A stretch of 33,381 nt of DNA from an uncultured Bacteroidia bacterium (GTDB lineage: Bacteria > Bacteroidota > Bacteroidia > Bacteroidales > UBA932). The position numbers were made by a program, and so were the translations under genes. The stretch lies in NCBI GenBank assembly GCA_902762655.1, contig CACWOZ010000025.1, positions 1 to 33,381 on the forward strand, read 5' to 3'. This document shows, in pieces, positions 27,945-31,372 of this stretch. A model generated the notes under the pieces. The model worked only from the letters and a program-made list of their open reading frames with translations, was not told the origin of the DNA and did no database searches. Position 1 is the stretch's first letter. Each line of letters starts with the position of its first letter.

Positions 27945-29135
27945 ATGTACGGAAAATTTCAAAAGTATCTTCAAGATGAGTTAAAAGCCATCGAAGAAGC
28001 CGGTCTTTACAAACACGAACGCAATATCTGCTCTCCCCAGGGCGCCGAGATCACCCTTGAGGACGGCAGCAAGGCACTTAACTTCTGTGCCAACAACTAC
28101 CTTGGCCTTTCAGACAATCCGCGTCTGATCGCCGCCGCCAAGAAGGCAATGGATGAGCGTGGCTATGGCATGTCATCCGTGCGTTTCATCTGTGGGGCGC
28201 AGGACATCCACCGCCAGTTGGAGAAAGCTATCGCCAAGTATTTCCATACCGATGATACCATTCTCTATGCTGCCTGCTTTGATGCCAACGGGGGAGTGTT
28301 CGAGCCTCTGCTGACTGCCGAAGATGCCATCATCTCCGATGCACTCAACCATGCATCCATCATCGACGGCGTGCGCCTATGCAAGGCTGTGCGCTATCGT
28401 TATGCCAATGCAGACATGGCCGACCTTGAGCGCTGCCTGCAGGAAGCCCAGGCACAGAGGTTCCGCATCATCGTCACCGACGGTGTGTTCAGTATGGACG
28501 GTAATGTCGCTCCCATGGACAAGATCTGCGAGCTCGCCGAGAAATATGACGCCCTCGTGATGGTGGACGAAAGCCATTCTGCGGGAGTCGTAGGCCCTAC
28601 CGGCCACGGTGTTGCCGAGGAATTCGGTCTTTACGGCCGCATCGACATCCACACCGGCACCCTCGGAAAGAGTTTTGGAGGCGCTGTCGGTGGATTCACC
28701 ACCGGCCGTCAGGAGATTATCGATATGTTGCGCCAGCGCTCCCGTCCGTACCTGTTCTCCAACTCGCTTCCTCCTATGATCTGCGGAGCCTGCATCGAAC
28801 TCTTCAAGATGTTGGAAGAGAGCAACGCTCTCCACGACAAGCAGCAGGAGAACGTAAAATACTTCCGCGAGAAGATGCTTGCCGCCGGATTCGACTGCAA
28901 GCCCACCCAGAGTGCAATCCTCGCCGTAATGCTTTACGACGCTCCGCTGAGCCAGAAATTCGCTGCCCGTATGGCCGAAGAGGGAATCTTCGTCACCGGA
29001 TTCTACTATCCTGTTGTGCCTAAAGGCCAGGCCCGCATCCGCGTGCAGATTTCCGCCGCCCACGAGAAGCAGCACCTTGACAAGGCGATAGCCGCCTTCA
29101 TCAAAGTCGGGAAGGAACTCGGGGTGTTGAAATAG
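27945..29135 (+). CDS. kbl: Glycine C-acetyltransferase (2-amino-3-ketobutyrate CoA ligase)
   Basis: 396 residues. PLP enzyme cleaving 2-amino-3-ketobutyrate with CoA to glycine and acetyl-CoA, completing threonine breakdown begun by tdh. LNFCANNYLGLSDNPRLI, FICGAQDIHRQLE, SDALNHASIIDG (ring-stacking His), VDESHSAGVVG (cofactor Asp) and the Schiff-base Lys242 in GTLGKSFGGAVGGF are all typical of Kbl. Length equals the E. coli enzyme. It is an alpha-oxoamine synthase like the gene at 20109, but the two are diverged and in different contexts. A strong terminator follows 26 bases after the stop. The single ATG at 27945 follows an A/T-rich leader of about 30 bases. Confidence 0.96.
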   Translation: MYGKFQKYLQDELKAIEEAGLYKHERNICSPQGAEITLEDGSKALNFCANNYLGLSDNPRLIAAAKKAMDERGYGMSSVRFICGAQDIHRQLEKAIAKYFHTDDTILYAACFDANGGVFEPLLTAEDAIISDALNHASIIDGVRLCKAVRYRYANADMADLERCLQEAQAQRFRIIVTDGVFSMDGNVAPMDKICELAEKYDALVMVDESHSAGVVGPTGHGVAEEFGLYGRIDIHTGTLGKSFGGAVGGFTTGRQEIIDMLRQRSRPYLFSNSLPPMICGACIELFKMLEESNALHDKQQENVKYFREKMLAAGFDCKPTQSAILAVMLYDAPLSQKFAARMAEEGIFVTGFYYPVVPKGQARIRVQISAAHEKQHLDKAIAAFIKVGKELGVLK

Positions 29136-29253: not shown

Positions 29254-29286
29254 AATAAAACTCGAAGCATTGCTCCGAGTTTTATT
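29254..29286. terminator. Bidirectional terminator, mainly for the mmd operon (minus strand)
   Basis: AATAAAACTCG (29254-29264) pairs with CGAGTTTTATT (29276-29286), with an inner AGC/GCT stem and an ATT loop. It lies 17 bases beyond the oadB stop. The core ACTCGRAGC...GCYCCGAGT is shared with the terminator at 26891-26920. Confidence 0.85.
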
Positions 29287-29303: not shown

Positions 29304-30467
29304 CTATCCGAGGAATCCAAGCAGGATACCGGCGGCGACTGCCGAGCCGATCACACCGGCTACGTTAGGCGCCATGGCGTGCATCAGCAGGTGGTTGGAA
29401 GGATCCGCTTCCAGGCCGACGGTTTCGGAAACGCGTGCGCTGTCGGGCACTGCGGACACGCCTGCGTTGCCGATCAGAGGATTGATCTTGTGGCCTTCTT
29501 TACAGAAGAGATTCATAATCTTCACGAAGAGCACACCACTGAAGGTCGCGATTACGAATGACAGCAGACCGAGTCCGAAAATCATGACAGATCGGGCGTT
29601 CAGGAAAACGTCTGCCTGGGTGGATGCTCCGACGGTGAGGCCGATCAGGGTGGTGACCACGTCGATCAGCGGCCCGCGTGCGGTCTCTGCCAGGCGGCGG
29701 GTGACGCCAGACTCCTTGAGCAGGTTGCCGAAGAAGAGCATACCCAGCAGAGGCAGTCCGGAGGGCACGATGAATGCGGTGCAGATGAATCCCACAATAG
29801 GAAAGATAATCTTCTCTTTCTGGCTGACCACACGAGGCTTGGCCATGCGGATCAGGCGCTCCTTCTTGCTGGTCATCAGCAGCATGATAGGCTTCTGGAT
29901 CACAGGCACCAGGGCCATGTAGGAATATGCCGATACTGCTATCGCACCCATTAGTTCGGGCGCAAGTTTGCCGCTCAGGAAGATGGCGGTAGGTCCGTCT
30001 GCTCCGCCGATGATGCCGATTGCACCTGCTTCATTAGGTGTGAAGCCGAGCAGCAGTGCAAGCAGATACGCTCCGAATATGCCCATCTGCGCCGCGGCGC
30101 CGATCAATACCAGGCGAGGTTGGGAAATCAGCGCACTGAAGTCTGTCATAGCGCCTATTCCAAGGAAAATAAGGGGGGGATACCACCCTTGTCGAACGCC
30201 CTGATACAGTATGTTGAGCACCGAGCCTTCTTCGTATACGCCTATGCGCAGGCCTTCGCCTGTAGCCGGGTCGAAGAACAGGGGGATGTTGCCTATGATC
30301 ATACCGAATCCTATCGGCACCAGAAGCAGGGGTTCCCAGTGCTTCCTGATACCAAGGAAGATGAATATCAGTCCTATGCAGATCATCGCAAGATGCTGCC
30401 AGGTACAGTTGGCAAATCCGGTAAACTGCCAGAATTGCTGGAGACTGTCGATAACTGTACTGCCCAT
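29304..30467 (-). CDS. oadB: Na+-pumping decarboxylase beta subunit
   Basis: 387 residues, polytopic inner-membrane protein. It decarboxylates the carboxybiotin carried by the neighbouring carrier protein and couples this to Na+ export. The conserved region with the essential Asp is present in GIIGGADGPTAIF, along with GIGAMTDFSALI and a C-terminal GNAGVSAVPDSARV. The length is slightly under the 400-430 typical of OadB/MmdB/GcdB. In this operon the partner is a methylmalonyl/propionyl-CoA carboxyltransferase, so methylmalonyl-CoA decarboxylase (the MmdB role) is more likely than oxaloacetate decarboxylase. The start lies three bases after the carrier-protein stop. The operon ends in the bidirectional terminator at 29254-29286. 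Confidence 0.93.
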   Translation of the reverse strand: MGSTVIDSLQQFWQFTGFANCTWQHLAMICIGLIFIFLGIRKHWEPLLLVPIGFGMIIGNIPLFFDPATGEGLRIGVYEEGSVLNILYQGVRQGWYPPLIFLGIGAMTDFSALISQPRLVLIGAAAQMGIFGAYLLALLLGFTPNEAGAIGIIGGADGPTAIFLSGKLAPELMGAIAVSAYSYMALVPVIQKPIMLLMTSKKERLIRMAKPRVVSQKEKIIFPIVGFICTAFIVPSGLPLLGMLFFGNLLKESGVTRRLAETARGPLIDVVTTLIGLTVGASTQADVFLNARSVMIFGLGLLSFVIATFSGVLFVKIMNLFCKEGHKINPLIGNAGVSAVPDSARVSETVGLEADPSNHLLMHAMAPNVAGVIGSAVAAGILLGFLG

Positions 30468-30470
30468 GCT

Positions 30471-30965
30471 TTATGCGATGCTGGCTATATCCGCTCCTTC
30501 AAGCACGGAGTCTGTCTTCTTCACGTAGATGGCGGTAACGGTTCCGTCGGACTCGGCGAGGATGTCATTCTCCATCTTCATAGCCTCTATGACAGCGATC
30601 TTCTGGCCGCGCTTCACTGCATCGCCTACATTTACACAGACGTCAATGATGACGCCCGGAAGGGGAGACACTATCTTCTTTCCGGCACCGGAAGCGGCGG
30701 CAGGAACTGCTGAGCCTTGGGCTGGACGGGAGCTCTCCTCGGCAGCCGCTGCCACCCTCGGCACGCTAAGAGGGAGGGGCCCAGCAACGCTGGGAGGGGT
30801 CTCGCGGAGCGAGACGGCTGAAGAGGAGAGACTCCCGTCCAGCCCGGATTCGAGTTCTACATTATAATCAACGCCGTTAACGGTGACGGACGCATTCTTG
30901 CCTTCTACTGAATTGACGGTAACATCGAAATCCTTACCGTTGATCTTGAATTTATACTGGCTCAT
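30471..30965 (-). CDS. Biotin carboxyl carrier subunit with repeat-extended linker
   Basis: 164 residues. It carries carboxybiotin between the carboxyltransferase and the membrane beta subunit. Residues 1-40 form an N-terminal strand domain (YKFKINGKDFDVTV). Residues about 95-164 form the biotinyl domain, with biotin-accepting Lys130 in VIEAMKMEND. The Pro/Ala-rich linker between them is enlarged: residues about 41-83 are encoded by a nested palindromic element (30719-30845) and include SLRETPPSVAGPLPLS, which does not look like an ordinary Pro/Ala linker. The frame is kept through the element. ATGA overlap with oadG upstream, three bases to oadB downstream. Equivalent to MmdC/AccB-like subunits of Bacteroides mmd operons. 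Loss of function is unlikely because the insertion is in a flexible region. Confidence 0.92.
   Translation of the reverse strand: MSQYKFKINGKDFDVTVNSVEGKNASVTVNGVDYNVELESGLDGSLSSSAVSLRETPPSVAGPLPLSVPRVAAAAEESSRPAQGSAVPAAASGAGKKIVSPLPGVIIDVCVNVGDAVKRGQKIAVIEAMKMENDILAESDGTVTAIYVKKTDSVLEGADIASIA
30719..30845. repeat. Nested palindromic element inside the biotin carrier gene
   Basis: The outer arms, 30719-30748 (starting GGGCTGGACGGGAG) and 30815-30845 (ending CTCCCGTCCAGCCC), are complementary over about 30 bases with about three mismatches or bulges. Inside are further hairpins: GGCAGC/GCTGCC (30741-30753), CCCTC/GAGGG (30755-30774), CCCAGC/GCTGGG (30780-30794) and GTCTCGC/GCGAGAC (30799-30815). 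This density of perfect stems is far above coding background and the segment is more G+C rich than its gene. It resembles a mobile palindromic repeat inserted in frame. Only one copy is in the window. Confidence 0.8.
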
Positions 30966-31372
30966 TTCTTTGGAGTTTTTCTGAAATTAAGTGATGGCGT
31001 TCCCCAGGCACTTTCGCGGGGAACATAGGTTATTATACCGGGCTCCACATCGTGGACTGCGTTCGAAAGATGAAGATGCAGGGCCATTGCGATGGCGGCA
31101 TTCACTTCGCCGCCGAGTTCGGCTTCAAGGGCCATGGCAATCGCTGCGGCCGTATCGGCATCGGGCTCACCCTTGGCAGCCTTCTTCCGGGCAGCCTTCG
31201 GGGCTTTCGGGGCGGACGGATGGGAGAGTTTCCCGATCAGGCTGTACACGAAATACAGTATCACCAGTGCGGTGAACACGGTGGTGACGGCAATCAGCGC
31301 AAGGGTGAAACCATGAGGGTCGGTTTCCGCCATGCGTTTGGCGCCCTCTGTCATGTTTAGGATTACAGTCAT
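30962..31372 (-). CDS. oadG: Na+-pumping decarboxylase gamma subunit (OadG-like)
   Basis: 136 residues. One membrane helix at about residues 22-46 (FTLALIAVTTVFTALVILYF) is followed by a Pro/Ala/Lys-rich linker and a short C-terminal domain (AAIAMALHLHL...). The gamma subunit anchors and assembles the decarboxylase complex and helps dissociate CO2. OadG is poorly conserved, but the topology, size and operon position between mmdA and the biotin carrier are diagnostic. Its ATG overlaps the mmdA stop by one base (TAATG) and its stop overlaps the carrier ATG (ATGA). Confidence 0.9.
   Translation of the reverse strand: MTVILNMTEGAKRMAETDPHGFTLALIAVTTVFTALVILYFVYSLIGKLSHPSAPKAPKAARKKAAKGEPDADTAAAIAMALEAELGGEVNAAIAMALHLHLSNAVHDVEPGIITYVPRESAWGTPSLNFRKTPKK

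Follow-up and report, generated by a model that had tools for sequence, protein, structure and literature searches.

Does the long palindrome inside the biotin carrier gene of this uncultured Bacteroidales bacterium belong to the protein, or is it mobile DNA? Palindromic elements carried in frame are best known from Rickettsia, an intracellular genus with reduced genomes. A sequence-only reading of the window (the whole stretch of 33,381 nucleotides that was analyzed) had proposed an RPE-like mobile palindromic repeat carried in frame, a proposal that the dispersed copies and the variable linker described below support. We go beyond it in finding that the arms are mostly owned by the site, that intergenic copies lie in hairpins, and that cores are inverted. 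The element is probably a mobile palindrome of the RPE-like, non-autonomous kind, enriched in one genus; its structured core would favor hairpins, and copies in genes would be tolerated as in-frame linkers.

The biotin carrier gene (30471..30965, reverse strand) encodes 164 amino acids with a Pfam Biotin_lipoyl domain (E 3.4e-16). The palindrome had been placed at 30719..30845, about 127 bp, and repeat and fold analysis give the same coordinates. As also claimed, it lies within the coding sequence without a stop, spanning residues 41-83 with the frame open; the carrier thereby appears to have gained about 42 additional linker residues. Because 127 nt is not a multiple of 3, the net insertion must have ends that differ from the visible ends of the palindrome. 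The left outer arm (30719..30748, forward strand) and its complement, the right outer arm (30815..30845, forward strand), are about 30 nt each and near-complementary, as had been seen: 30719-30732 and 30832-30845 match over 14 nt at 100%, and the inner stretches 30733-30748 and 30815-30830 over 16 nt at 88%. Folding of either strand gives an outer stem of about 30 bp that encloses three internal hairpins, one fewer than the "at least four" counted earlier. The fold has z-scores of -8.27 as RNA and -8.15 as DNA, with 0 of 200 shuffles as good in each case.

The conserved core motif is at 30744..30785 (forward strand; match to covariance model R1, E 1.4e-10, the window copy being one of the seven rows of R1). 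Core helix 1 (30750..30763) pairs TGCC at 30750-30753 with GGCA at 30760-30763, and core helix 2 (30755..30774), which crosses it, pairs CCCTC at 30755-30759 with GAGGG at 30770-30774; both are defined on the forward strand by covarying columns in 89 distinct copies. Internal hairpins CCCAGC/GCTGGG (30780..30794) and TCTCGC/GCGAGA (30800..30814) were found on the same strand as palindromes and in the fold. The element is richer in G+C than the remainder of the gene (72% vs 51%), as noted before, and three of its six frames are free of stops. The encoded linker had been called atypical; in most of the carriers read in L086-L117 the linker is of Ala/Pro type. Rfam models gave three matches to 30400-31100 of the window, all far below their gathering scores.

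Further copies are present in the same genome. A DNA search led to six related places that were followed, all with the same fold plan and all in open frames. Model R1, a 42-column core built from the window copy and these six, recovers eight strong copies, with E values under 1e-6, of which one is new; further matches have E 0.012, 0.052, and 4.8. The strong copies are in genes for GH95, the biotin carrier, an outer-membrane beta-barrel protein, atpG, fmt, truB, folP, and pdhC, and the frame is open across the insert in all eight. The weak copies L023 and L024 (E 0.012 and 0.052) also fold with long arms; L024 is outside any long frame and the frame of L023 is ambiguous. In-gene copies use different reading frames and both orientations. 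With copies dispersed in this way, the picture of a sequence that occurs once and is conserved in relatives, an ordinary linker, does not hold.

The element occurs both in other proteins and between genes, the two settings that the earlier reading had suggested searching. In other genomes, 25 frames span an element by at least 25 codons, and 17 were chosen for Pfam analysis (leaving out L060, L068, L224, L225, L236, L271, L274, and L281). Pfam hits were obtained for 12 of the 17, including radical-SAM proteins, RibF, SpoU and SAM methyltransferases, MurB, AroB, GH3, a glycosyltransferase, and EamA. L230 and L240 have no Pfam hit; they are 58-59% identical to each other and, for L240, to L264, which has a PG_1098_Fer hit and is related to the methyltransferase family discussed below. 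Three frames look spurious (L036, L067, and L283, long frames without a Pfam hit), and L283 is located between convergent genes despite spanning a long frame. Open reading frame span alone is thus a poor test of in-gene status. No copy was confirmed within a gene in G016.

The core is enriched in one genus. It is matched at E<=0.1 in 30 of 36 genomes of the same genus, sampled from at least 400, and in none of 24 genomes from other genera of the order. Stricter filters were applied to a larger sample of 295 genomes from the order, in which some of the 24 genomes recur. Among the matches listed, four genomes besides our own match there at E<=0.001, one from the same family and three from other families, which gives four of 293 genomes outside the genus; the same-genus genome G253 has no match at this threshold. 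Out-of-genus copies follow this plan too, and the arms of some are A+T-rich. As many as 45 matches were counted in G027, and 39 matches at E<=1 were found in the 8-contig genome G016. The named loci with the most similar neighboring mmdA gene are from Bacteroidales metagenome-assembled genomes, many of them, judging by title, from rumen and gut. Plasmid and phage records contain no match to window positions 30700-30860. Viral spread was considered and rejected: 28 IMG/VR contigs contain an exact core 15-mer, and six of these gave weak model matches, the best at E 1.2e-4.

Sites in orthologous genes are filled in some species and empty, inverted, or altered in others. For the biotin carrier, a comparison that the earlier reading had called for, the nearest relative (L084) contains a near-identical core that is reversed relative to the window, L085 has a palindromic insert without a core model match, and no locus other than L084 among 47 around mmdA (L084-L130) matches the core model. 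Three of 22 atpG loci (L164-L185) match, those of our genome, G108, and G122; the cores of G108 and G122 are reversed relative to our own, and the arms of G122 resemble our own arms. Among 13 relatives, the truB, pdhC, and fmt linkers vary between filled and empty. At fmt, L303 (G195) has a bare in-frame palindrome with 15-bp arms exactly where relatives carry the element, which is either a remnant or a target; the fmt tree, in which two of 11 inner branches are starred, does not date this palindrome. The folP, atpG, pdhC, fmt, and methyltransferase sites are filled in several species, with inversion and loss.

The folP gene has an insert in the same loop before SxDTT in our genome and eight relatives (L195-L202). 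The core model is matched at E<=0.05 by all of these inserts except that of L196, and it is also matched in L219 and L221 of the folP set. Relative to the gene, the core runs antisense in L194, L195, L198, L199, and L202 and sense in L197, L200, and L201, and a flip at one site separates L198 and L199 from L200. Across L194-L201 the arms terminate at one shared Ser codon and are complementary despite differing sequences. The strand preceding SxDT, which is also present in relatives lacking the element, is encoded by the right arm. Where a folP or fmt site is free of the element, the palindromes seen there (L204, L209, and L303) could be remnants. In L202 (G197) the insert itself is apparently duplicated in tandem within the gene, with the frame still open. 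We also observed that L203 and L208, from two species, share ACTTGGGAAAAGCCTCC in the folP loop, encoding the peptide KTWEKPP, possibly another in-frame repeat.

In the methyltransferase family, 10 of the 12 members of one starred clade read as filled, two of these 10 in altered form (L388 and L389). L386 is a short form nested with support among filled members, and L387 has lost the core and kept arm stubs, its nesting among filled ones being the simplest reading. As judged from these sequences, both short forms would most simply be losses. The sister species L361 and L363 have opposite orientations and different arms. The methyltransferase linker of the distant genus members L367, L370, L371, L375, L377, and L383 contains a third kind of insert with AKTAQNAL-like peptides, which marks this linker as a hot spot for unrelated repeats.

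The core is about 65-90 nt long and consists of the two crossing helices plus hairpins. BLAST of L280 against 18 relatives matched about 65-90 nt at other loci with 82-99% identity, the matches ending within the arms. In an alignment of 102 matches (89 distinct), the two mutually crossing helices, of TGCC/GGCA and CCCTC/GAGGG type, covary: 99.6% of 782 cells are paired, and 80 double changes were counted versus 15.0 in shuffles and at most 12 when the helices are slid. The counts of pairs and of pair types in the 89 distinct copies are not above shuffles. The alignment was fitted to a model containing helix 2 but not helix 1. The crossing helices form either an H-type pseudoknot or two alternative hairpins.

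Arms and core behave differently. Arms extracted around the core at loci of 10 genomes gave 117 rows, of which 58 form a strict set (arm score at least 18, length at most 175, and only the best row for each locus and strand); this set omits all 13 conserved-arm G016 loci and almost all copies of G027, which have short or poor arms. Arms are 24-31 nt long in 43 of the 58 elements, and the two arms within one element are 94% complementary. Between elements of the strict set, arms have a mean identity of 52% over 51 same-genome pairs with cores at least 85% identical and of 50% over 88 pairs with cores less than 70% identical. With looser cuts (98 elements), 187 like-core pairs average 72%. This set includes the G016 subfamily (L069-L074 and L077-L083), whose 91 pairs average 92.5%; the 96 like-core pairs outside it average 53%. 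The terminal inverted repeat is thus unshared in most copies and shared in the G016 subfamily. Three of four pairs with identical cores have arms just 55-60% identical (L058/L063, L059/L061, and L280/L281), and L224/L225, the remaining pair, shows no difference anywhere and looks like a single locus represented on two contigs. G524, outside the genus, has two copies with similar arms (L324 and L327). In most copies, then, the outer arms are a property of the site and not of the core. Shuffled arms are 42+-10% identical, below the 52-53% of like-core pairs, and about 8-14 nt adjoining the core are found again at other loci; the element may therefore own part of the arm. By-eye reading of element flanks and of intergenic empty sites found no constant target-site duplication.

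Between genes, the copies L224, L229, L274, and L280-L283 are a few nt from the stop codons of neighboring, in cases convergent, long frames. Three such sites of G017 (L280, L281, and L283) were traced into relatives. At L283 the core is inside the stem CCGGGG..CCCTGG, and three species (L442, L447, and L443, from G422, G113, and G408) have CCGGGG-loop-CCCCGG plus an A tract and no core, the A tract being as for a terminator of the opposite strand; a matching hairpin is absent in 11 of the 14 relatives shown. Among 10 relatives shown for L281, G235 and G212 are filled. The core of L396 (G212) is inside AAGTAAGCCCCTATCA..TGATAGGGGCTTACTT, and in L397 (G066) an almost identical stem encloses 6 nt, preceded by an A tract and followed by a T tract. 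The arms of L281 itself are bare in none of the 10 relatives, and the matching filled and bare pair consists of two relatives. Between genes, therefore, the core can sit in a hairpin that relatives have bare, as observed at two sites. At the third site, L280, 11 relatives were placed. G408 and G422 have the arms of G017 with the core reversed (L280 vs L452 and L453), and the arms covary among the three. G072 is filled with other arms, G113 holds another repeat, five relatives have a spacer of 12-22 nt and no hairpin, and two have long gaps. At the L281 site, L392 (G422) has a stem of about 21 bp whose interior is just some 26 nt long and contains two small hairpins; this may be a core that has shrunk or one of another kind.

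These arms bear on whether the element is an ordinary MITE with its own terminal inverted repeats, the arms diverging fast by paired (concerted) changes and the bare hairpins being deletion products. Arms that covary among folP orthologues and among L280, L452, and L453, the conserved arms of the 13-locus G016 subfamily (mean 92.5%), the similar arms of L324 and L327, and the arm stubs left by core loss in L387 are all expected under such a history. We nevertheless regard it as doubtful, because identical cores have arms only 55-60% identical in three of four pairs and because the bare hairpins at the L283 site carry the A tract of an opposite-strand terminator in three species. Selection for the insert itself, as a functional linker or as a regulatory RNA whose structure tunes translation or folding of the host protein, would account for the same linkers being filled in several species and for the covarying core pairs. 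We consider it improbable, since orthologues lose the element (L386 and L387), flip it, or carry other repeats in its place, and the peptide changes with the frame. That the element is untranslated, spliced out or bypassed in a mini-intron- or byp-like manner, is suggested by the conserved host genes and the strong fold; it is highly improbable, because removal would need no open frame and yet the frame is open over the insert in all eight strong copies of our genome, with different frames and both orientations in use.

The hairpin-preferring mobile palindrome is the reading we favor. Dispersal, mostly site-specific arms, inversion, loss, frame keeping, and, at two sites, a core in hairpins bare elsewhere are the observations that it joins. 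The core would move as a folded single strand or via a recombinase reading a cruciform, and it would insert at or near hairpin loops. Template switching or arm-to-arm conversion would later maintain the complementarity of arm pairs and would also permit inversion and core deletion. Gene copies would persist only if the linker that they add is in frame and tolerated. The arms of in-gene copies possibly derive from short host palindromes, an inverted target copy, or element-borne inner arms. An inverted target copy made at insertion, suggested by the folP right arm, was set aside because the arms are better accounted for by the hairpins seen bare at two intergenic sites; within genes it may still apply. 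Long pre-existing palindromes in genes were rejected as too rare (hairpins of at least 11 bp with loops up to 14 nt: nine in 240 kb of L084-L117 and 34 in 333 kb of L118-L163), and the in-gene sites are thus unlikely all to be former long hairpins. A bolder version, which we hold as tentative, is that hairpins (terminators and linker palindromes) are lasting docking sites at which a shape-recognizing cassette system inserts, exchanges, inverts, and deletes interchangeable cores, repeatedly reshaping the linkers of essential proteins.

Among known systems, RPE are described, in the parts of the sources consulted, as palindromes of about 100-150 bp, in frame in genes for conserved proteins and intergenic (PMC2229807, PMC10969869). 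A 100-150-bp palindrome in frame in conserved genes is also what we find. The Bacteroidales element differs in being from another phylum (compared with RPE by description only), in outer arms that are mostly site-specific, with copies in terminator-like hairpins, and in the use of several frames and both orientations, with cores inverted at one site. Most copies lack the repeat-borne outer ends of the RPE and MITE families, and this sets the element apart from RPE. Bacterial MITEs (Correia/NEMIS, ERIC, RUP, and YPAL) are, in the sections seen, small non-autonomous structured repeats, some fused in frame to open reading frames (PMC2229807). Dispersed copies are common to both; MITEs bear their own ends and mostly a target duplication, whereas here most outer arms are owned by the site, and repeat-borne ends are limited to the inner part and to a single subfamily. 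The insertion sequences that target REP palindromes, as far as the consulted part of the source describes them, are a precedent for palindrome targeting (PMC1525189); the Bacteroidales element differs in having no internal transposase and hairpin targets unlike in sequence. We found no description of this repeat in Bacteroidales among open-licence papers.

The element offers a case unrelated to Rickettsia, in the Bacteroidales, in 30 of 36 sampled species of one genus. With orthologous sites in essential genes filled, empty, flipped, and lost, comparison can test two long-standing questions. One is the way in which palindromic repeats get into genes without destroying them; the other is whether hairpin shape can guide a mobile unit to its target. 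Annotators should bear in mind that an unusual linker in one of these proteins may be mobile DNA.

A second short palindromic repeat, with a GAGCGAAGCGAAG-like core and CHSERSEESP-like peptides, occurs in in-frame linkers and between genes. It was seen in L386 (methyltransferase linker, G418), L228 (RibF, G019), L295 (fmt, G250), and L477 (intergenic, G113); L386 holds it where relatives have the core element. The third hairpin of several cores resembles this GAGCGAAGCGAAG-like repeat. In the window itself, an 11-bp hairpin (AATAAAACTCG..CGAGTTTTATT, 29254-29286) lies between convergent genes at 27945-29135 (forward strand) and 29304-30467 (reverse strand), and is likely a bidirectional terminator and an unoccupied potential target.
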